A stretch of DNA of 64,000 bases, taken from assembly GCF_024437735.1 (NCBI RefSeq), contig NZ_JANFQO010000004.1, positions 1 through 64,000 on the forward strand. The letters run 5' to 3'. Each line of letters opens with the position of its first letter. The stretch's first letter is position 1. Shown here piece after piece: positions 4,529-36,800 of this stretch. Position numbers and translations under genes: made by a program. This DNA comes from Tahibacter harae. Its GTDB lineage: Bacteria; Pseudomonadota; Gammaproteobacteria; Xanthomonadales; Rhodanobacteraceae. The notes under the pieces were generated by a model. The model ran no database searches. It was not told the DNA's origin and worked only from the letters and a program-made list of their open reading frames with translations.

Positions 4529-5225
4529 GGGACGTTCCTGTCCGGCCTTCACGGCGGTAATTTCAACCGTTGCAACCGATTTGCGCAATAGCAAATTGCA
4601 ATCGCGGCGGCGGAACCGGCGTGAAGGCGTCGTCGCTGCCCCGGCGCCACCGCGGGCCGGCGCGCCGGATCGCGGCAATGCCCCGGCGTATGGGCAGGTT
4701 CGACCCGACCGGGTCGAAAAACCCGGCGACGGGCGAATGCCGCTGCTCCGGCGATCCGGCACCCGCCACAGGGATACAGCGGGTGGACCCCGCCAGCACG
4801 AAGCAGCCGATCCGGTCCTGCGGGCCGGCAACAGCGCCGCGGCCGGCAGCAATCCGGCAGCGCTGTTGCGCGCCGTGCGGGCGAAGACTGCCCTGGGGAA
4901 AGCGCGCGCTGGCTGCGGCGGCGCAGGAAAACGTGCAGCAGCTGCATCGCCGCACCGCGGCGGCCACGCCAGCGGCAGCGTTCTCCGCATCGGCAGCGCT
5001 GCTTTTGCACAAACCGGCAAACGCCCATTGCGCGGCTCCGACAACAGCGGTTTCCCACCGCAGTGTCGCGCCATCCGAGCGCCGCCTGCCGTCGCAGAAA
5101 AACATCTCTACAAAACCACAAAACAAAATCGCAACGCCATTGCCGCCGCAACGCATCGCACGATGCCATCTCATTCCGCCGCACAAACCATCCGGCAGCG
5201 GCACGCGGCAGGAAACCGGCTGCGC
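4529..5225. other. Intergenic region between the two paralogous HTH genes
   Basis: No convincing gene was found: frames here change composition randomly and match nothing recognisable. It contains the palindrome pair at 4580-4602 and a perfect 8-bp stem (TTCGACCC-GACC-GGGTCGAA, 4699-4718). A locally AT-rich patch at about 5095-5135 may be a promoter zone. Confidence 0.5.
4580..4602. promoter_or_regulatory. Candidate operator (TTGCGCAA / TTGCAA palindromes)
   Basis: TTGCGCAA at 4581-4588 and TTGCAA at 4596-4601 are two small palindromes with centres 14 bp apart, 53-75 bp upstream of HTH-A. A closely similar arrangement, ATTGCGCAATAGG then ATTGCGCAAA, occurs upstream of the paralogue at 5967-5992. 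The shared word TTGCGCAATAG suggests a common regulator site. Confidence 0.4.
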
Positions 5226-25792: not shown

Positions 25793-26707
25793 TCATGCTG
25801 GCTGGATCAGGTCCCGCTCGGTACGCGGCAATCCGGCATGGAGATGACAGGCGGCGACCGCCGCGTGGCCGAAGGCCACGGCGATCTGGTTCAGGCCACT
25901 GACGATATCGCCGATGGCATAGACGCCGTCGACGGCGGTCATCTGATAGCGGTCGACCTCGATCTCGCCGGCTTCGCTCACGCGCGCGCCGATCGCGGTC
26001 ACCAGTTCGGCCGCGGTGTTGGAACCCAGGCAGGCATAGACCGCGTCCAGCACGGTGCGGGCGCCCGCGCGTGCGCGGTGCGCGATGCGCCGGCCGTCGA
26101 ATTCCAGTTCGCCCGGCGGCAGGATCGGCAATCCCGCGGCCGCGGCGGCCTGCCTGTCCTGCTCGTCACCGGCGTCGGTGGGCAGCAGCAGGACCTGTGC
26201 GGAAAAGGTGCGCAGAAAGCGCGCGTGGGAAATGAGCTTGTCCAGGCGGCCGTAGACGCCGATGCGCAGGTCCGTGGCCTCGTAGGCGTCGCAGACTGCG
26301 CACAGGCGCAGCGCGCGCTGGGCGATGGCCTGTTCCACCCAGGCATACGGCGGCAGCTGATCCTTGATGCCGCTGGCGAGAATGACCGTGCGTGCGCGCC
26401 AGGAACGCGCGCCGGCGCAGACCACGAACTCGCCGCCGTCGACGCTGACACGATCAACCAGGCCTTTCTCCAGGGTCACGCCATAGGACCCGGCGTGCTG
26501 GTGCAGACGCTGCAGCAGCCGGGGACCGCGGATGCCGTCGGGAAATCCCGGGCAGTTGTTGCTTTCCGGTATCCAGCGCGCGCGGCTTTCGCCCGCATCC
26601 ACCACCAGACAGCTGCGGTGAAACCGGCACAGGTACGTCGCGGCGGTCAGTCCGGCGGGCCCGCCGCCGATGATGAGGCAATCCCAGCAGTGTTCTGTCG
26701 CGGCCAT
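25793..26707 (-). CDS. Thioredoxin-reductase-like FAD/NAD(P) oxidoreductase
   Basis: The 304-residue protein has an N-terminal FAD motif (IIGGGPAGL, 12-20), the redox pair CAVC at 136-139 in the position of the thioredoxin reductase disulfide, and a C-terminal FAD motif (DGVYAIGDIV). The second nucleotide-binding site is atypical (GVYGRLDKLISHA instead of GGGxSA), so NADPH use is uncertain, as in some ferredoxin-dependent or diverged TrxR-like enzymes. Start MAATEHC gives family length; a 60-residue upstream extension is Arg/Ala-rich and unlikely. It lies upstream of katE on the same strand, consistent with redox defence. Confidence 0.85.
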   Translation of the reverse strand: MAATEHCWDCLIIGGGPAGLTAATYLCRFHRSCLVVDAGESRARWIPESNNCPGFPDGIRGPRLLQRLHQHAGSYGVTLEKGLVDRVSVDGGEFVVCAGARSWRARTVILASGIKDQLPPYAWVEQAIAQRALRLCAVCDAYEATDLRIGVYGRLDKLISHARFLRTFSAQVLLLPTDAGDEQDRQAAAAAGLPILPPGELEFDGRRIAHRARAGARTVLDAVYACLGSNTAAELVTAIGARVSEAGEIEVDRYQMTAVDGVYAIGDIVSGLNQIAVAFGHAAVAACHLHAGLPRTERDLIQPA

Positions 26708-26959
26708 GTCCGGTACCCGTCGCCGATCCGGCTTTCCACACAGCAAATAGCCGGCCAGGCCGGGCGGCGCCCGTCGCATCCGGTTCAGCCAGCGCGCCGC
26801 CGGGGTTTCCGCAACCGCAGCGGTTTCACGTGCAGCGCCCGGTGCAATACCGAATCGCGCGTGCATCCCCGCGCACCGCGCCAGCCAGGCCATTCGATAC
26901 GTGGCGGGCTGCGCCGCGCGGCCGTATGCGAGGACCAGCGCCGCGGACGCTGTCCACCG

Positions 26960-27514
26960 TCACCAGATCAGATCGTCCGGCACCTTGAACTGGGCGTAAT
27001 ACGCATCGTCTTCGGAAGTACCGGCGGCCGGCTCGGCGCCGGTGCTCTGGCCGTGATCGAGCACGATCATGGACGCATCGCGTTCGCGCACCTTGTCGGC
27101 GGCCGCGCGCGGCAGCAGCTCGAAGCGATCATCCACGCGCACGATCACCAGCGCGCCGCTGGACAGCTTGCCGCGCAGATCCGCGTTCACCAGCAGCGTG
27201 CGGATGGCGCCGTCGACGCTGAAGCGGTATTCGCTCTCGCCGGAGCGCGGCACCTTGCGGTCCTGGATGATCTGGCGCGCCTGGGCGCGCAGTTCGGCGA
27301 TGCGCGCCTGGGCCTTGCTCTCGGCGGCGAGCACGCGGTCGCGCTCGACCTTCTCCGCCCTGGCCCGCTCGGCCTCGATCTGGATTTCGCTGGGCCCGGC
27401 CGGCGCCTTGGCATGCCGCGCCTTGTTCTGTTCGCGCGCCACCTCGGCCACTTTGGACTTCTTGACCAGGCCGGCCTTGAGCAGCTGTTCCTGGAGCGGA
27501 TTCGCCTTCGCCAT
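26960..27514 (-). CDS. DUF2058 family protein (YaiL-like)
   Basis: The 184-residue protein begins MAKANPLQEQLLKAGLVKKSK, has a charged coiled-coil-like middle (about 40-85), and a C-terminal region ending in YYAQFKVPDDLIW. The N- and C-terminal signatures are those of DUF2058 nucleoprotein-associated proteins such as E. coli YaiL, for which no biochemical function is settled. Length is normal. It is divergent from the metallopeptidase gene, with 71 bp between start codons. Confidence 0.9.
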   Translation of the reverse strand: MAKANPLQEQLLKAGLVKKSKVAEVAREQNKARHAKAPAGPSEIQIEAERARAEKVERDRVLAAESKAQARIAELRAQARQIIQDRKVPRSGESEYRFSVDGAIRTLLVNADLRGKLSSGALVIVRVDDRFELLPRAAADKVRERDASMIVLDHGQSTGAEPAAGTSEDDAYYAQFKVPDDLIW

Positions 27515-27585
27515 GTCACGGTTTCATGTTGAGGATTTCCGTCCCATCATACCTGCCGTTCCCGCCGCCCGCGCCCCTGCCGAAC

Positions 27586-28110
27586 ATGAGTCCTCTGAAA
27601 TACCTCGCCGGCTACTCGCCGCATCTGCAGATGCGGGTGCAGGAGCTGATCGCACAGGGCCGGCTGGGCACGCTGCTGGCCGAAAAGTACGGCCAGCCCC
27701 ACGGCGTGCGCAACGACGGCCAGCTCTACGACTACGTGCAGGCGCTCAAGGAGCGGCACCTGAAAAAGTCGGCGCCGCTGGGCAAGGTGATCTACGACGC
27801 CAGGCTGCAGGTGATGAAGCACGCGCTGGGCACGCATACCACCATCTCCCGCGTACAGGGCAGCCGGCTCAAGGCCAGCCGCGAAATCCGTATCGCCAGC
27901 GTCTTCCGCGAGGCGCCCGCCGAATTTCTCCGCACCATCGTGGTACACGAACTGGCGCATCTGAAGGAGGCCGAGCACAACAAGGCCTTCTACCAGCTGT
28001 GTACGCATATCGAGCCGGACTACCACCAGCTGGAATTCGATCTGCGGCTGTATCTGACGCAGCTCGAACTGGAACAGGCGGAGCAGGCACGGCCCGGCGG
28101 CATACGCTGA
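27586..28110 (+). CDS. YgjP-type (M48/DUF45) metallopeptidase-like protein
   Basis: The 174-residue protein has the zinc signature HELAH (His121, Glu122, His125) followed by His131 in AEHNKAFY, typical of YgjP/SprT-like proteins. The surrounding sequence (RTIVVHELAHLKEAEHNKAF) is near-canonical. No signal peptide or membrane span, so it is cytoplasmic. Start MSPLKYL was chosen because the preceding residues (PFPPPAPLP) look like untranslated leader. Substrates are unknown. Confidence 0.88.
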   Translation: MSPLKYLAGYSPHLQMRVQELIAQGRLGTLLAEKYGQPHGVRNDGQLYDYVQALKERHLKKSAPLGKVIYDARLQVMKHALGTHTTISRVQGSRLKASREIRIASVFREAPAEFLRTIVVHELAHLKEAEHNKAFYQLCTHIEPDYHQLEFDLRLYLTQLELEQAEQARPGGIR

Positions 28111-28149
28111 GGCCGGAGAATGGCCGGCCGCCGCGGCCCGCACCTGGAT

Positions 28150-28791
28150 TCAAGCCTGCGGTATCACCGCCGCAGCAAACGGCGCAAGCACCATCCAGCC
28201 GAGATTCGCATACAGGCCGCGGCCGTCTTCTGTCGCGACCAGGAGCTGCGGCGTGGCCGCCGAGTTTCTCGCCGCGCCGAGCGCGGCCATCACCGCGGCC
28301 CCGAGTCCCTTGCGCCGATGATCCGGCGAGGTTTCGATGCGGTCGTAAATGAACACCGCCGCCGTCTCCGCGGCGCATCCGCTTGCTGCCAGCCCGCCAT
28401 CCGGCGCGACGACGCAAGCCCGGACGACGGGCCCGGCCTGCGCGACGTCCATCCTGTACCCATCCGGCAGCGGCTTCGTACCAGGCATTGCCGCCGTCGC
28501 GACCATGAAATAGTTCGCCGGCTGAATCGTCCAGCGATCCGGCAGCACACTGCGCAATTCCTCGTCGGTGCCGCACAGCTTCAGGAAATGCCGCGGTGCC
28601 GCGATTTCCTGCGCGATTTCGCGCAGGCCCGCACACAGCTGCGGAAACACCCAGCGCTTCACTTCTTTTTCCGAACCGGTATCGACGCGATAGCCGCCGC
28701 GGTCATGCACGGGAAGCGGCGCGCCGCGGGCCATGGAATGGGCGGTTTGCCAGGCAAGAACGAGCTGCGGATCGATGCGGGATGGCGTCAT
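28150..28791 (-). CDS. GNAT-family N-acetyltransferase
   Basis: The 213-residue protein has a C-terminal GNAT fold. The acetyl-CoA-binding segment is IETSPDHRRKGLGAAVM (motif A, R-x-x-G-x-G/A), followed by a motif B-like GLYANLGW. The N-terminal 90 residues are helical and not recognised. Substrate unknown. The gene converges on the metallopeptidase gene, and its upstream side faces the start of the restriction-modification island, so it marks the island's left border. Confidence 0.85.
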   Translation of the reverse strand: MTPSRIDPQLVLAWQTAHSMARGAPLPVHDRGGYRVDTGSEKEVKRWVFPQLCAGLREIAQEIAAPRHFLKLCGTDEELRSVLPDRWTIQPANYFMVATAAMPGTKPLPDGYRMDVAQAGPVVRACVVAPDGGLAASGCAAETAAVFIYDRIETSPDHRRKGLGAAVMAALGAARNSAATPQLLVATEDGRGLYANLGWMVLAPFAAAVIPQA

Positions 28792-28877
28792 GGGCGGTTG
28801 CAGATGTGGGACGGGATGCGATGCATTCCTGCGGGATTGCGCGTACCAGCCCGGGCGTCGTACGCAAAGTCCGAGGA

Positions 28878-28905
28878 CTCATTGTAATCATTCGGGTCCT
28901 ATGAG
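28878..28905. promoter_or_regulatory. Candidate operator upstream of the controller-like HTH gene
   Basis: An interrupted inverted repeat, CTCAT (28878-28882) and ATGAG (28901-28905), is locally AT-rich and sits 23-50 bp before the HTH start. Controller (C) proteins of restriction systems bind short palindromes in this position. The match is weak. Confidence 0.3.
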
Positions 28906-28927
28906 CATCATGGCGAGGAGCACCGAA

Positions 28928-29130
28928 ATGAAGAACAAGACCGACTTCGGCAACCGTTGCGCGCGCTCCGCGCCGAACGTGGCTACTCGCAGGAACAGCG
29001 CGCCCGTATCTGCGGCCTCGGTCGCAGCTACGTCGGCGGCGCTGAGCGGGTTGCGCGGAATGTCAGCCTTGTCAACATCCGCAAGCTGGCGAACGCTCTC
29101 ATGCTATCGCCCGGGGAGTTCTTCGAGTGA
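28928..29130 (+). pseudogene. Frameshifted XRE-type controller (C-protein-like) gene of the R-M locus
   Basis: ATG at 28928 has a strong GAGGAG box 8 nt upstream and encodes MKNKTDFGNR. The frame is then wrong: the next frame encodes LRALRAERGYSQEQRARICG, then SYVGG, and ends with SLVNIRKLANALMLSPGEFFE before TGA at 29128-29130. Restoring one base near 28970 (CCGT-TGCGCG to CCGTTTGCGCG) would give a continuous 67-residue HTH protein of the size of C regulators. So either a real 1-bp deletion or an assembly error exists. A TTG in the second frame could be an alternative start, giving a shorter protein. The stop overlaps the nuclease start (GTGA). Confidence 0.75.
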
Positions 29131-30068
29131 ACCGATCTGCCGATGCCGTAGCAATCCTGCACGCTGATGCGCCAAAGGTGATGGACGCAATCAACGCGTT
29201 CACAGCACAGACATTCCGGACGCGCGGCGGCCGCCTGGGCAGCGGCATGGGCAGCTTGCTTGAGGCACTGTGGGTGTACCACATGAACAATGTGCTGGCG
29301 AATGAAGGCGGACTTGCGCGCAAGTGCGAGCTGGCGTGGCTGCCGGATCACGAGCCCGCAGATTTCGCCTGCCTGTACCGGGGCGCCGAATGGGAACCGC
29401 AAGGCCGCCACGGCGAGCTGTTCCGGATCGAAGCCAAATCAATGAATGTCGGCGTGGACGAAGCCAAAGGCCACTTCACGAACCTCGCAAAGGAGACGGC
29501 CGGACACGACCAGCTTCTTGTGCTGATCTGGTCGTGGGAAAACCTGGAAAACGGATATTCGTGGCCGAGAATTCACGACTACTTCCTGGGCCCCTCTCTG
29601 CCCATCATCGAGGTGCGCGACCAGCTTCACCTGGCGCGGGGCGGTACTTTCGTAACCGGATCGGCCTGCCCGGACGGCTGCACCCGGAAGGCATGCACGC
29701 ATGATGGAGAACCGCTGAACGCCGCCGGCAAACGGGAGCGGAGATCCGGCCCCAAGTCGTGCAAGCCCGCGAACGTCGAATACGCGGCGAATTTCGGCGG
29801 CCTGGTGCGGATGCTGAAGACCGACAACGGCGCAGCCCGCGCCATCTTCCGCGGGCTGCGGAAAAAGGACGACATCATTCATGCCTACATATCATTCATT
29901 CACAGACACTTTCCTTCCGAAGAAGTCAACCAGTTCAAAAAGATCGAATGGCAAGCCGCGCTGAAGGCGCTGGGAATCAATGCCGTGAACCCGACCGCCG
30001 CAGCAGCAAACGAACTGCTGCGTAAGCATGTATCCGACTACCAGGACCGCTTGCGAAGCCTGTTCTAG
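29127..30068 (+). CDS. PD-(D/E)xK-type restriction endonuclease candidate
   Basis: The 313-residue product starts at GTG, overlapping the controller-like gene by 4 bp. The likely nuclease core is Glu46, Asp79 (EPADFACLYRG) and the Glu102-Ala-Lys104 strand (FRIEAKSM), a standard PD-(D/E)xK spacing. A Cys cluster (C181, C185, C190, C212, with His192) may bind zinc. The N-terminal TFRTRGGRLGSGMGSLLEAL resembles some Type II enzymes. I do not recognise a named enzyme. Neighbours make restriction the best role: a controller-like gene upstream, and converging methylase and specificity genes ending 5 bp away. Less GC-biased codons than flanking genes suggest transfer. Confidence 0.75.
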   Translation: MNRSADAVAILHADAPKVMDAINAFTAQTFRTRGGRLGSGMGSLLEALWVYHMNNVLANEGGLARKCELAWLPDHEPADFACLYRGAEWEPQGRHGELFRIEAKSMNVGVDEAKGHFTNLAKETAGHDQLLVLIWSWENLENGYSWPRIHDYFLGPSLPIIEVRDQLHLARGGTFVTGSACPDGCTRKACTHDGEPLNAAGKRERRSGPKSCKPANVEYAANFGGLVRMLKTDNGAARAIFRGLRKKDDIIHAYISFIHRHFPSEEVNQFKKIEWQAALKALGINAVNPTAAAANELLRKHVSDYQDRLRSLF

Positions 30069-30072
30069 GGCA

Positions 30073-30771
30073 TCAATCCGCCGCGGCAGTCCGGATGACA
30101 GGCTTTCCCGTTGAAAGCGCTTCCAGAAGCCCTTCGGCCTGCTGCAATGGCAGCGCTTCCAGGCGCGCGCGCAGCGCGATGATCTCCTGATCGATTTCCA
30201 GAAGCTGTTCGACCAGCCTGGATTGCACATCAAGAGGCGGCACCGGAACTTCTATGCTGAACAAGTCCTCCGCAGCCATGCGCGGAAGCGAGGCGCCGAC
30301 CGTGAACTTTCCCGCAAGCTGCGTGACGAAGGGCGAGGCCAGAATGTGCCGCAGATAACGCGGCAGCACCCTGTCCTGGCGCGCGGTCAGGACAATGAAT
30401 TCGCCGGAACAGACGCCCTCCGATGCGGGCGGCTGTGCCAAATAGACCTTGTTCAATTCCGGGCGCAGGCGCCCGTACAGGACGTCATTTTCCCGGAATG
30501 TCTTCGATCGGGATTTGATCGACGACGCCCGGCGCGGCGCGAATTCCACCAGCTCTCCGGTCGTCGACCTGATGTTTTCCAGACCAAGATAGACGATGCG
30601 CGTGTCGCCGTAGTGCTGGGGGTCGAGCGTGGTTCGGCGCTCGTCGGCCAGTTCCCGCAAGGGAAGATGGCGATACGCGGAAACGCCGGGAGCCTCAGCC
30701 TCGGCAAAGTAGGAAACCGTCCACCGATTTGCCTTCAGCAGCCTCGTGCTCTCGACAACATCCACCCACAT
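30073..30771 (-). CDS. Half-size Type I-like specificity subunit (single TRD)
   Basis: The 232-residue protein resembles one half of HsdS: a target-recognition domain (about 35-170, with HLPLRELADERR, DVLYGRLRPELNK and GASLPRMAAEDL) followed by a helical conserved region (PVPPLDVQSRLVEQLLEIDQ). Full HsdS proteins have two such units (about 400 residues), so this one would have to dimerise and would give a palindromic-type bipartite target (inference). The ATG at 30771 overlaps the methylase stop by one base (TGATG); a GTG at 30774 is the alternative. It converges on the nuclease gene. Confidence 0.85.
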   Translation of the reverse strand: MWVDVVESTRLLKANRWTVSYFAEAEAPGVSAYRHLPLRELADERRTTLDPQHYGDTRIVYLGLENIRSTTGELVEFAPRRASSIKSRSKTFRENDVLYGRLRPELNKVYLAQPPASEGVCSGEFIVLTARQDRVLPRYLRHILASPFVTQLAGKFTVGASLPRMAAEDLFSIEVPVPPLDVQSRLVEQLLEIDQEIIALRARLEALPLQQAEGLLEALSTGKPVIRTAAAD

Positions 30772-32387
30772 CACCAGCCCTCCTTGTCAAGAAACGCTCT
30801 GAAGCGATTGGCTGCCGCCTCGAGGTCGCTGTCGCCGGAAGGCCGGCCGCTGGCGTCGTACCCTATGGAGCCGAGATCAGCGAGAAATATGTTGTAGCCG
30901 CCTGGATCCGCCTCCCCAGGCTCGCATTTTCGCAGGACGAGAATGCTGGTCTTGATATTGGCCCCGAACGGCGAGAAGGTTTCGACGGGCAGGCTGAAAA
31001 TGGCACGCACGCGCGCCTGGCCTGCAATCCAATGGCGCACGCCGGCGGTGCTGCGGTTGCCGAGCACGCTGTCCGGAAGAACAATCGCAAGACGGCCGCC
31101 GGGACGCAAAAGCTGAAGACACCGCTCAAGCGCGACGATTTCCAGCGAGACTGCCGAGCGGCGATCTGCCGCCAGCTCAAAAGGACCCAGTTGCGAAAGA
31201 CTGTCTTGCGGCAAGTCCACACCAAACGGCGGATTGGTCATTACCAGGTCGAAAGTACCGCGGTACAGGTCAGGATAATTGGAGAACGGAAGAAGCGAGT
31301 CGATACATCGGATATTGCTGTGTCCATCGCCGTGAAGCCGCATATCGGTCATCGCAATCCTGACCATGCGGTCGCTCTTCTCGATGCCATGCAGCCGCGT
31401 GAAGGCAAACTCGTGGAACAGCTTGCCTGCCTTGGCGTGGGTTTTGCGGACGTAGTCGATGGCCGAGGTCAGAAAATGACCGGAACCGCAAAAAGGGTCG
31501 ATGATGAGTTCGCGAACATTCGGCTGCATCACGCGCACGATGAAGTCGATGACTTCCTTAGGCGTGAAATATTGCCCCATGCCGGCGCGGACAGCGGGAA
31601 GCAGGACGTTCTGGAACGCCCGGCCCTTGATGTCCACCGGCGAATTGCTGAGATCGTAGTACTGGAGCAGTTCGACCGCGCGAACGATGGCAGGACTCGA
31701 CAGAAGCAACTGGCCGCGGAATACGCCGCGCGAACGCTCATAGGCGGGGATCCTGTTGGAGAATATCGCCTTGTCGTCGTCTATCGCCTTGAGATAGAGC
31801 CGCCTGATTTCAGCGGCACACTCCTCCACCGCGGTATAGCGGGAACGCTGAAAGAGAAGCTCGCCCGTCTTGATGCTCTGCTCTTCATCGTAGAGCTTGG
31901 CGTAGATCAGCTTGCAGATCTCGTCCAGCGCATCCGGCGCATGCAGACCATCGATATCCCGCAACGCGCTATGCACCTCGAACAGGACATTCTCCAGCTT
32001 GCCTGTAAGCGGCTTGAGGGACTTGGGTTCGAGGCGGTGAGCGGAGGCAGGGATGCTGGGCTTCTCAAAGGAAGCGACATAGTCGAAATCACCGGTCCGC
32101 AAGCTGTGCCGGATGATCTTCCTGACCTGCCCCTTGGCATCGAGCTGGAGCGCCATGCTGACGGGCGGCAAGGCCAGCAGGCACTTGCGCAGGTGTGCGT
32201 CATCGCCGGACGTCGACCCTTTTTTTGCAATCGCGCAGATTACGTAGTTCGTACCTCGTTCGTTGGAGACGACGTACACCTCGCTGCCGGCCTCTTGTGC
32301 GTAGCGGTCGATGGAATGGCCGCCGGTAGCGGGAAGCGCGAGGGCTTCTGCTATGAGCAGCCGGGCATTCGTGACCAAGGGAACCAC
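30771..32387 (-). CDS. Type I-like N6-adenine DNA methyltransferase (HsdM-like)
   Basis: The 538-residue protein has an HsdM-type helical lead (MGQYFTPKEVIDFIV, 270-284), SAM motif I DPFCGSGHF at 297-305, and catalytic motif IV NPPFG at 385-389, giving N6-adenine methylation. The N-terminal 240 residues precede the MTase domain and do not look like the usual HsdM N-terminus; a seven-T/A run near 32220 lies inside this part, but the frame appears continuous. The start is GTG at 32387, and no better in-frame ATG is seen. It overlaps the S-like gene and has no HsdR partner in the window. Composition is less GC-rich than neighbours. Confidence 0.88.
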   Translation of the reverse strand: MVPLVTNARLLIAEALALPATGGHSIDRYAQEAGSEVYVVSNERGTNYVICAIAKKGSTSGDDAHLRKCLLALPPVSMALQLDAKGQVRKIIRHSLRTGDFDYVASFEKPSIPASAHRLEPKSLKPLTGKLENVLFEVHSALRDIDGLHAPDALDEICKLIYAKLYDEEQSIKTGELLFQRSRYTAVEECAAEIRRLYLKAIDDDKAIFSNRIPAYERSRGVFRGQLLLSSPAIVRAVELLQYYDLSNSPVDIKGRAFQNVLLPAVRAGMGQYFTPKEVIDFIVRVMQPNVRELIIDPFCGSGHFLTSAIDYVRKTHAKAGKLFHEFAFTRLHGIEKSDRMVRIAMTDMRLHGDGHSNIRCIDSLLPFSNYPDLYRGTFDLVMTNPPFGVDLPQDSLSQLGPFELAADRRSAVSLEIVALERCLQLLRPGGRLAIVLPDSVLGNRSTAGVRHWIAGQARVRAIFSLPVETFSPFGANIKTSILVLRKCEPGEADPGGYNIFLADLGSIGYDASGRPSGDSDLEAAANRFRAFLDKEGW

Positions 32388-32392
32388 ACTCC

Positions 32393-32430
32393 ATGACAGG
32401 ACGCCGCGCCGTATTATGACAGAAGGTCAT
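32393..32430 (-). promoter_or_regulatory. Candidate methylase promoter with overlapping operator
   Basis: On the minus strand TGTCATAAT (32413-32421) is a possible extended -10 box. It is overlapped by the palindrome ATGAC-AGAAG-GTCAT (32416-32430), and a third ATGAC copy lies at 32393-32397. Such overlap fits repression of the methylase by a controller protein or by itself. No clear -35 was found. Confidence 0.4.
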
Positions 32431-32996
32431 GCAGGGCATTCCAGATCCTGCGCCGGCATTGGCTTGGGGTTTCTTCGGCCCGCGTCCAGGACGGGAAAAC
32501 AAGGCTTGAGAGGGATGCCATCCGCACTCCAGCGAAATTGCGCTGGCGCTATCGGCGACATCAATCGCCTGCGGCATCCGTTTCCGCCCGGTCCATTTCC
32601 AGGACATATCGGCCCGCTTTACGCGCACTTCGGGCGAAGCACCGCGTGAGCCGGGCTGACTTGGCGTGCAGTAACGCCGCGTCTGGCTCGCGGCAACGGG
32701 CTTTCGCGCCTATCAGCCGATGGCAGGCACGAAGCCCACGGATAATCTGTTCAACAGCCGATCCAAGTCGGCCGACCTCGCCAGCAAGCGAAGCCGCTGC
32801 CTGAACTGGACCGCGCCCAGGACACGCGGCAAGTCCGGGTTCCACGCCGATCACCGCATCCAGTACTCCGGCGCACGCTCATCTGCAGGATCGGAGCCTT
32901 GCCCGAGGCATGCGCCCGCGAGGCGGATGCGGGGCAGCGCCGAGGCCGGATGCTTCTCCGGTCTGAAAGACGGATTGATCCAACGTCTGACGGAAG
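32431..32996. other. Spacer between methylase and tRNA, no gene seen
   Basis: Frames here are short and unlike known proteins, and no terminators or repeats stand out. It probably contains the right edge of the island, as composition returns to GC-rich within it. Confidence 0.4.
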
Positions 32997-33072
32997 TGGT
33001 GGGCCCACCAGGATTCGAACCTGGAACCAAAGGATTATGAGTCCTCTGCTCTAACCGTTGAGCTATAGGCCC
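32997..33072 (-). tRNA. tRNA with CAT anticodon (probably tRNA-Ile2, possibly tRNA-Met)
   Basis: The minus strand folds as a cloverleaf of 76 nt with an encoded CCA. The acceptor pairs GGGCCTA with TGGGCCC, the D-arm is GCTC-AACGGTTA-GAGC, the anticodon stem is GAGGA/TCCTT with loop CTCATAA, and the T-arm is CCAGG-TTCGAAT-CCTGG. The body resembles the minor tRNA-Ile2, whose C34 is converted to lysidine by TilS, more than elongator or initiator Met tRNA, but the distinction is not certain by eye. It lies between the R-M island and an integrase remnant. Confidence 0.93.
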
Positions 33073-33143
33073 GTCAATGACTTGGCAGCGCTTTCCGGAA
33101 ACCCGGTGTAATTTCTGTGTAACCGTGCCGGACAATCTGCCCC

Positions 33144-33305
33144 CAGCGCATCCATTGCCACGCCGAGGTTGGCCGCGTGCGTGTAGCGATCGGCCATGGC
33201 CCGGGTTTTCCAGCCGCCAAGACCCTGGATTGTAGCTGAGTCCAGGCCAGCTTGGGCAGCACCGGTCGCAACGCCGTGCCGCGGGTGTGCGAGGCGCAGG
33301 ATGCG
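33144..33305 (-). pseudogene. C-terminal remnant of a tyrosine-recombinase integrase
   Basis: A 54-residue stretch reads ILRLAHPRHGVATGAAQAG and then IQGLGGWKTRAMADRYTHAA. This matches the box II region of tyrosine recombinases: the HxxRHxxAT segment, the LGGWKT turn and the nucleophilic Tyr in RYTHA. The His-Arg spacing is one residue short of the canonical HxLRH, and nothing upstream in the frame looks like the rest of an integrase. The frame ends in the adjacent tRNA. It is a decayed scar of an element that used this tRNA. Confidence 0.7.
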
Positions 33306-33838
33306 GCAGCTCGCCGCTTCGTTCGCCCCTTTTCTGGGTGCCTGCCAGCCGACCCGGACGAGGATGCCTGGTTGTTTCCAAAAGCAATTCCCGCTACGTC
33401 GCCTGCACGATGCCCACACCGGTCGCCGCTGGCGAACCGCCTGTACGGGGCTCCGGTATCGGAGCGGTGTCAACAGCCGTCGACCTGCGTTCCCCGTGCA
33501 TCCGTCGCGCCCGGAGAACTGCCGTTCTCGCGCAGCGACATGCCAGATGGAACACTCCAACTCGCCGCACCCGACGCCGGCAGCGGCCGCGTCACGCATT
33601 TGTCATTATTTCCACAGGTATATCAGGTCCGGTTCCGCCGTCTGCCAGGCACAACAGTATCCCGATACGCGAACGGATGGCCCGGCCGTTCCACACCGCC
33701 GAAGGCTGTGCTATCTGATAGGGACTTGCTCGACGCCGTCGCCAGGGGACTCTGCCGTATTCGCAACGACTACGGCCGTGGCGCGGCTGCGCAGTGCGGG
33801 TGACCATCATCGCTATACACGCGCCATGGGGATATCGC
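33306..33838. other. Upstream region of the second subtilase
   Basis: No gene is recognisable. The part nearest the integrase remnant may be further decayed mobile DNA. A less GC-rich patch at about 33600-33660 (TTATTTCCACAGGTATATCAG) is the best place for the subtilase promoter, but no hexamers are convincing. Confidence 0.4.
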
Positions 33839-36800
33839 ATGCGAAAGTATTTGTTTGTCTGTGTAAGTCTGTCCTTGTCTTTCTCGGCCTACGCCGCGGG
33901 CGGCGAGCGTTGTGCCGTGTCGTTCGCCGGAGCGCAGATGGATGTCTGCAGCGGCAAGGTGTCGGCGCCGGAGCCGTTTGCGCAGCTGGCGCAGGTCGAG
34001 GCGTTCAAGGATTCCAGCCTGCGCCTGATCAAGTTCGACGGCCCCATCGATGACGCGCGGCGCGCGGCGGTGGAGGCGATCGGGGCAAAGATCGTCGACT
34101 ACGCGCCGTACTACGCCTACGTGGTGCAGATGCCGTCCACGCTGGACGGCCGCGCCCGCGCCATTCCCGGCGTGGTGTGGAGCGGTCCGTTCCTGCCGGC
34201 GTTCAAGATCGATCCGAACATCGCCGCGGAACTGCGCGGCGGCACGCTGCTGCGGGATGCGGGCATCACCGAGCTTTCCATCAGCCTGCACGCGGGCGCC
34301 GACCGCGCCGCGATGCAGCAGCTGGCGGCCCGCGCGCCGGGGCTGAGCGTGGTCAACACGGTCGCGGCCGGCGGCGATACGCAGCTGATTGCGCGCTTCG
34401 AGCGCGCCCAGCTGCGCGCGGCGGTGGAGCAGCTGGCGGCGGATCCGCGGGTTTCGGCGATCGGCTTCCGCCTGCCCAAGCGCCTGCTCAATTCCCAGGC
34501 GGACTGGCTGCACCAGAGCAATGTCAACTCGCCCAGCCCGCTGCGCCCGGTATTCGCCAAGGGCCTGTACGGCTGCGGACAGACGGTAGGCGTGCTGGAT
34601 TCGGGCCTGTTCATCGGCAACTGCGCCTTCAACGACGCGGCGCAGACGCCGGCCATCAGCGACTGCAACACCGGCGCGAGCTGTCCGCCGGTGACCACGC
34701 CCAATCTCGCCCACCGCAAGGTGACGGCCTACTACAAATGGTCCGGCGATGCCGGCGGCGCACCGGCCGACGAACACGGCCACGGCACGCATGTGACCGG
34801 CTCGATCGCCGGCAACAATCCGGCCAATGCGGTGGACTGCACCAACTTCACCACCGAAGGCGGCAATACCGATCTGGACGGCACCGCGCCCGGCGCCAAG
34901 ATCGTGATGCAGGAGATGGGCGGCGATCTGGCCTATCTGAGCAACACCGGCAATCCGTATCACGCCGCGGACATGGCCTATACCAGCGGCGCGCGCCTGC
35001 ACAGCAATTCCTGGGGCGGCGGTTGCACCAACATCTTCGGCGGCTGCGTCAGCGGCTGTACCGTCACCTACGATGCCGAGGCACGCCATGCCGACAACAT
35101 CATGCACGACCGGCCGGAGATGCTGGTGCTGTTTGCCGCCGGCAACGACGCCTCGGCCTGCCCGGCCGGCAACAACGTCGGCAGCCCGGGCAATGCCAAG
35201 AGCGTGATGACCATTGGCGCCAGCCTGCGCGGCACCGCCGCCAACGGCATGGCCAGCTTTTCCTCGCGCGGCCCCACGCTGGATGTGCGCACCAAGCCGG
35301 ATCTCACCGCCCAGGGCGACAGCATAGTGTCGGCCCAGCGCGACGCCTGCGGTACGCGCACCTCCAGCGGCACCTCGATGGCCACGCCCACCGCCGCCGG
35401 CCTGGCCGCGCTGGTGCGCGACTATCTCGCGCGCGGCTTCTATCCCAGCGGCCAGCGCAATCCGGCCGACGCCATCACCAATCCATCCGGCGCCCTGATC
35501 AAGGCCATCATGATTTCCGGCGCCTTCAGCATGAGCGGCAGCGGCGCCGGCAGCGCGCCCGGCCAGTCGCAGGGCTGGGGCCGGATACTTCTGGATAATT
35601 CCCTTTATTTCAACGGCGACACCAGCCGGCTCTACATCCACGATTCGCCCAACGGCCTGTCCACCGGCGGGCAGGATACGCATACCGTGGTGATCACCGC
35701 CGGTCAGCCCTTCAACGCCACCCTGGCCTGGACCGACGCCGCCGCCGCCATCGGCGCCAGCCCGGCCCTGGTCAACAGCCTGCGCCTGGAAGTGGTCGCG
35801 CCCAACGGCGATGTGTGGACGCAGAAGCTGCCGGCCGCCGCCACGCCGTCCAATCCCAATCCGACCCAGGACACGACCACGGCCAACTACGACGACCGCA
35901 ACACGGTGCAGCGCATCAGCTTCACCGCACCGGCCACCGGCCCGTATCAGCTGCGCGTGCGCGGCATCAACGTGCCCAGCGGACCGCAGAAATACGCCCT
36001 GGCCGCCACCGGCTCCCTGGTCGTGGGCACCGATCCGGACTTTGCCCTGCAGGTCAATCCGCAGACCGCCAATATCTGCGCCGGCTCGCCAGCCAGCTAC
36101 GACGTCGGCGTGCAGAGCCTGAACGGCTTCACCAGTCCGGTCACCCTCAGCGTCACCGGCCTGCCGGGCAGCGCGACGGGCACGTTCACACCCAACCCGG
36201 TGACGCCGGCCCAGCCGGCGGCGATCTCGCAGCTGGCCGTGGCCAATACCGCCGGCGTGGCGAGCGGCAGCTACACCCTGTCCCTGGCCGGCAATTCGGC
36301 CTCGCCGCCGCTGCAGCACACGGCCAGTGCGACGCTGAACGTGGTCGCCGCCGCCCCCGCCGCGGGCAGCCTGACCGCACCGGCCAACAACGCCACCGGC
36401 CAGGCGACCTCGCCGGTCTTCAGCTGGGCGCCGATCGCCGATGCGGCGTCGTATCGCATCCAGGTCGCCACCGACGCGGGCTTCACCACCCTGGTAGAGA
36501 ACCAGGTCGTCACCACCACCAGCTATACGCCCAGCGTGGCGCTGAGCCCGGACACGGCGTATTTCTGGCGCGTCTACGGCATCAATGCCTGCGGCCAGGG
36601 CACGGTGTCGGCGGTGTTCCAGTTCCGCACGGCGAATGAGATCTGCCGCGCACCCAATGCCGCGATTCCGGACAACAACGCCACCGGCGTCACCGACAGC
36701 CAGACCGTGGCGACCACGGGCACGCTGAACGGCCTGCGCCTGGGTCTGCAGATCACCCATACCTACGTGGGCGACCTCACCCTGACCCTGAGCAAGGGCG

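Follow-up and report, generated by a model that had tools for sequence, protein, structure and literature searches.

A stretch of 64,000 nucleotides from Tahibacter harae (contig NZ_JANFQO010000004.1, positions 1 to 64,000; here called the window) carries a compact restriction-modification cassette in which the gene for a free-standing restriction endonuclease (R) faces, on the opposite strand, the genes for a specificity subunit (S) and an HsdM-like, gamma-class N6-adenine methyltransferase (M). The R, S and M genes are real and constitute one restriction-modification set, which we assign with a probability of about 0.92 to Type IIH (“Type 1 1/2,” AhdI-like), the likeness to the proteins of AhdI being one of organization and, for M and S, of size only. 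Three features of this type are present in the window: the restriction endonuclease (REase) is unfused and is not an HsdR, M is of the gamma class with an NPPF motif, and S contains a single target recognition domain (TRD). An earlier note, made from the letters of the DNA alone, had presented the locus as an unusual architecture. This claim of novelty fails, because the combination of a separate REase with a gamma-class M and an S of one TRD has already been published as Type IIH. One review presents AhdI as pairing an REase that resembles those of Type IIP with a methyltransferase built of separate M and S in a 2M+2S arrangement, a system first called “Type 1 1/2” and later Type IIH (PMC4081073, section 31), and a second review also gives an account of the AhdI-type organization (PMC3874165, section 35). 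The architecture is thus already known, and the locus joins it.

R (29127 to 30068, plus strand) encodes 313 amino acids from a GTG start codon that overlaps the stop codon of a controller gene remnant. Convergent with it, on the minus strand, are S (30073 to 30774; 233 amino acids, 26.1 kDa) and M (30771 to 32387; 538 amino acids, 59.4 kDa), the start of S and the stop of M overlapping by 4 bp. The earlier description of a 313-residue nuclease, an HsdM-like M and a single-TRD S, with R convergent to M and S, is borne out by the open reading frames (ORFs), by the PADLOC models and by the structure model of S. The close convergent stop codons of R and S also stand, but they are separated by 4 bp (30069 to 30072) rather than 5 bp. 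The GC content is ∼60% in R and in S plus M, against 69% across the window. Promoter and terminator scans of the locus were uninformative.

R matches the PADLOC model REase_II (PDLC03408) over nearly its full length and far beyond chance (6.9e-159). It matches no Pfam family, and searches of NCBIfam and of PDB sequences were also without a useful match. D79 and E102-x-K104 are invariant in all 13 aligned R proteins. The structure model of R (predicted local distance difference test [pLDDT], 84.4) has Type II REases as its top fold matches, with weak E values, and a search of a viral fold library with R gave no match below an E value of 0.001. R also has parts outside the REase-like core, namely, helices at residues 235 to 312 and a cysteine cluster at residues 181 to 190.

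M is a homologue of HsdM, and S is a homologue of HsdS. S matches the PADLOC model Specificity_II (PDLC03590) near full length (5.6e-80) and the Pfam family Methylase_S at 0.00054 and 20.6 bits, under the 22-bit cut-off. Its structure model consists of one globular domain, the single TRD, and one long C-terminal helix (residues 181 to 222), and it matches part (about half) of the HsdS chains 5ybb and 3okg (E values of 3.6e-12 and 5.5e-12, respectively). M matches the PADLOC model MTase_II (PDLC03218) near full length (2.8e-240) and Pfam N6_Mtase (2.8e-30); its motifs are DPFCGSGHFL and NPPF (residue 385), the latter invariant in 11 of 11 M proteins. A methylation-associated defence system (MADS) was considered and rejected, M and S matching the MAD2 and MAD5 models far under the cut-offs (202 against 720 bits and 18.6 against 400 bits, respectively).

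The three genes are conserved together. Among 398 genomes of the same phylum, R was found in two, T. harae itself and a genome of another order (G480), where all four genes recur in this layout; the two sets share 69% identity in R, 64% in M and 53% in S. Some match to M occurred in 179 of the 398 genomes, but only the two R-bearing genomes scored high (796 and 1032 bits), and the next-best match, after 796 bits, was at 161 bits. A search of genome contigs with a three-sequence alignment of R gave 10 further loci from 37 candidate stretches, and the same alignment confirmed 5 of 168 candidate stretches in viral contigs. These scans were seeded by two short peptide patterns, so that relatives lacking these patterns were missed. 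S lies directly after R, and convergent with it, at all 11 of the other bacterial loci, and M comes next at 10; at the eleventh (L009), the contig ends inside S. The 11 loci span Proteobacteria, Bacteroidetes, Acidobacteria, Cyanobacteria, Planctomycetes and a candidate phylum. Divergence is congruent among the 11 loci that have all three genes, the window included (r = 0.81 for R-S, 0.77 for R-M and 0.91 for S-M; permutation P of ∼2e-4). Synteny, shared presence and congruent divergence therefore identify R, S and M as one system, and the grouping proposed in the earlier note survives the comparison of neighborhoods.

The S and M alignments do not include locus L009, and no alignment includes L016 to L020. 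Four contigs from IMG/VR carry a cassette identical to the Vulcaniibacterium copy over 3,244 bp and were for this reason not counted as independent. At one locus, from a Planctomycetaceae metagenome-assembled genome (L015, 836 to 1772), nuclease matches lie in two frames, owing to a broken gene or an assembly error, and R was aligned from the second frame only. Scans with the single R protein confirmed 0 of 19 genome-contig stretches and 0 of 3 viral-contig stretches and gave no plasmid relative. Among 99 genomes, R was found in T. harae only, and among 369 genomes of the class of G480, it was found in G480 alone. A search of plasmids with M returned 1,832 records, all of <60% identity and with the best among those listed at ∼30%, and thus no close plasmid copy. 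Hybrid systems of the AhdI type are accordingly present in several phyla, and they include a nuclease for which Pfam gives no match. It is easy to name an M/S pair of this sort “Type I without HsdR,” a label that the present comparison can help annotators to avoid, and the loci are candidates for work on specificity.

AhdI, from Aeromonas hydrophila, resembles the window set in its separate REase, its convergent R and M units and its combination of M with a single-TRD S. In PMC5333194, it represents the convergent layout in which the controller gene (C) and R form one unit opposite M, and the sizes given for M.AhdI in PMC2878638 (S, 25 kDa; M, 60 kDa) are near those of the window (26.1 and 59.4 kDa). 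A C gene likewise lies upstream of R in the G480 relative; the controller of the window is broken, unlike that of AhdI. PshAI and BsaBI have the same methyltransferase composition as the window set, M.PshAI and M.BsaBI being entered in Table 3 of PMC3874165 as two gamma-class M plus two S, and are likened to it by that description of composition only. BcgI-type (Type IIB) systems have Type I-like M and S elements as well, but in the accounts given in PMC3874165 and PMC4081073 their nuclease is fused to M and their S has two TRDs, whereas R of the window is separate from M and its S has one. Type I systems (EcoKI and EcoR124I) share with the window an HsdM-like M and an HsdS-like TRD; the window differs in having one TRD instead of two and in that no HsdR was found.

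We predict the following mode of action. Two M and two single-TRD S subunits would assemble into an M2S2 methyltransferase, which would recognize two copies of one half-site, inverted relative to each other, and would methylate adenine at N6 in each strand of this interrupted palindrome. The separate nuclease, putatively of the PD-(D/E)xK class and probably homodimeric, would cut the same sequence when it is unmethylated. In G480, the C.AhdI-like controller upstream of R may hold back the nuclease until the DNA has been methylated; in the window, where the controller is frameshifted, R would be made without C control or would be made poorly. The half-site could tentatively be GAC, as for AhdI, a suggestion that draws only on the controller similarity of the G480 relative and to which we give somewhat less than an even chance.

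The controller was the part of the earlier description that did not hold. A controller-like helix-turn-helix (HTH) gene had been described, but its ATG at 28928 and the HTH core are in different frames. The core is readable one frame over, in a C.AhdI-like controller gene remnant that is open from 28888 to 29130 on the plus strand and whose first start codon is a TTG at 28957. The HTH core alone matches Pfam HTH_3 (1.1e-8); among solved structures, it best matches C.AhdI (1y7y; 5.4e-15), with 36 of 62 aligned residues identical. In G480 (locus L004), the controller is an intact 85-codon ORF upstream of R and agrees with C.AhdI at 58 of 71 residues (116 bits, against 51 bits for C.BclI, the next-best solved controller). 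The stop codon of the controller and the start codon of R overlap in the same way at both loci, as GTGA in the window and TTGA in L004. Judged against the intact L004 gene, the window controller is frameshifted as assembled, with an assembly error possible, and it is substituted at positions common to C.AhdI and the L004 controller.

The occurrence of controllers in the wider family was surveyed with a profile from the window, L004 and L008 in six frames of the DNA of each locus and of positions 26001 to 35000 of the window. An HTH gene precedes R at only 3 of 12 bacterial loci, these same three, and that of L008 is not C.AhdI-like; an extra HTH match lies ∼5 kb from R in L012. No comparable HTH gene occurs in 12.9 kb of DNA from the Vulcaniibacterium locus L006, the nearest relative (80% identity in R). 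C control thus appears to be optional in this family, and loss of the controller in the window need not mean that R is silent.

A possible, degenerate C-box (controller operator), judged by eye, lies at 28861 to 28886 on the plus strand, with the core AGTC-CGAG-GACT at 28868 to 28879; the form of the C-box is given as GACT-N3-AGTC in PMC4824078. The pattern AGTCCNNGGACT matches exactly at 28868 to 28879, its sole match in the 64 kb, with ∼0.8 expected by chance at ≤1 mismatch. The counterpart stretch in L004 (8812 to 8837), upstream of the intact controller, contains AGCC-CGTG-GACTCATTGTC, which is close to that form, and by comparison the half-sites of the window look more degenerate. Pattern counts in L004 are not above chance (9 found versus 6.75 expected at ≤2 mismatches), the count in the window is not clearly so, and an inverted-repeat search reported neither the window stretch nor that of L004; the candidate C-box is therefore put forward from its position and likeness.

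Other readings of the locus were weighed against the Type IIH assignment. The nuclease might dock on the M-S complex and borrow its specificity, forming an M-S-R assembly of a new architecture, unlike AhdI, where R acts alone. S does accompany R at all 11 of the other bacterial loci, and the helices at residues 235 to 312 and the cysteine cluster at residues 181 to 190 could be docking surfaces. Constant co-occurrence is, however, expected of any toxic REase, and AhdI-type systems already account for the layout. In addition, cyanophage homologues of R at two loci (L005 and L020) lie in stretches of 10 kb in which neither M nor S was matched, and the R core can therefore exist without M and S. 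We consider docking very improbable. Still harder to credit is a Type I system that has lost hsdR and adjoins an unrelated nuclease: the homology of M and S to HsdM and HsdS would fit, but in several phyla R keeps its place beside S and M and diverges congruently with them, the model of S has one TRD rather than two, and no HsdR N-terminal family was found in the T. harae genome. In line with the earlier note, no HsdR was found in this genome (99.47% complete, 79 contigs), which has no match to HSDR_N (PF04313) or HSDR_N_2 (PF13588), while searches with these two families gave matches in 9 and 4, respectively, of 14 control genomes used as positive controls; the grouping of the parts survives this comparison also. 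A Methylase_S search of the same genome found nothing, but it is weak evidence and leaves room for other divergent S genes, since it missed the sub-cut-off S of the window as well.

The cassette could also be decaying, so that methylation may persist with restriction off because the controller is broken and the C-box degenerate. Decay is compatible with the Type IIH assignment and differs from it only on present activity. The frame break in the HTH gene, the substitutions at positions common to C.AhdI and the L004 controller and the degenerate C-box-like half-sites are all in keeping with it. Nevertheless, none of R, S and M is truncated and their catalytic motifs are intact, and C-independence may be normal in this branch, as the nearest relative, L006, shows no such HTH gene in its 12.9 kb. 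On balance, we regard decay as rather doubtful. A broken controller beside full-length R, S and M would allow a simple test of C-independence.

The phage search with R alone returned three cyanophage records. Nuclease homologues lie at 4974 to 5675 of L005, 2974 to 3675 of L037 and 3358 to 4110 of L020; homologues of ∼30% identity were seen in the Synechococcus phages WH25-B, S-M1 and QB2 and in one IMG/VR contig. The WH25-B homologue keeps the catalytic residues. In WH25-B and S-M1, the nuclease homologue follows psbA and psbD, and the next gene in WH25-B encodes the major head protein. The cysteines C181, C185 and C190 of R are conserved in 12 of 12 aligned bacterial nucleases and absent from the cyanophage one; the cluster may bind metal. 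The cyanophage homologue is possibly a free-standing homing-type endonuclease, and this lone relative is the least explained point of the locus family. With no Pfam match, a conserved cysteine cluster and lone cyanophage homologues by psbD, R may represent an REase family that differs from AhdI in specificity and shares an origin with free-standing phage nucleases. We consider this improbable; if true, it would connect homing-type endonucleases of phages with the REases of Type IIH systems.

The cassette apparently inserted next to a tRNA gene. The probable inserted segment extends from 28792 to 32996, with approximate edges, between a GNAT gene and a tRNA-Met (CAT; 32997 to 33072, minus strand) that marks one edge and is the sole element reported by Rfam at gathering score between 28000 and 34000. 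An ORF at 33063 to 33599 on the minus strand is a possible integrase remnant: its partial tyrosine-recombinase match (Phage_integrase; 1.3e-4 and 22.2 bits, against a curated cut-off of 27.1) covers only profile positions 133 to 169 of 172. Flank markers were searched in seven other genomes of the genus, none of which contains R. The distance to the tRNA is ∼175 bp from the GNAT gene in G007, ∼92 bp from the end of the YgjP-like gene match in G002 and ∼0.5 kb from a partial marker match in G001; the marker-tRNA gaps are ∼2 kb in G004 and ∼15 kb in G005, and G006 and G003 were uninformative. Because these gaps differ, the spot varies within the genus, without the cassette in the other genomes. 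The interval from the YgjP-like and GNAT genes to the tRNA-Met (28792 to 33072) varies in length as an integration hotspot would.

Mobile elements adjoin the copies examined, with a tRNA site in the window and phage or conjugation genes beside two relatives. On an IMG/VR contig (L018), phage tail and endolysin genes precede the cassette. Identity of L018 to L006 from Vulcaniibacterium, L016, L017 and L019 is 99.6 to 100% over a stretch that begins ahead of the endolysin gene and runs past M; further out, the tail gene included, neither L006 nor L019 aligns with L018. The cassette directly after the endolysin gene in L006 and L016 to L019 is probable prophage cargo. In G480, it lies between tRNA-Arg and TrwB/TrwC-like conjugation genes.

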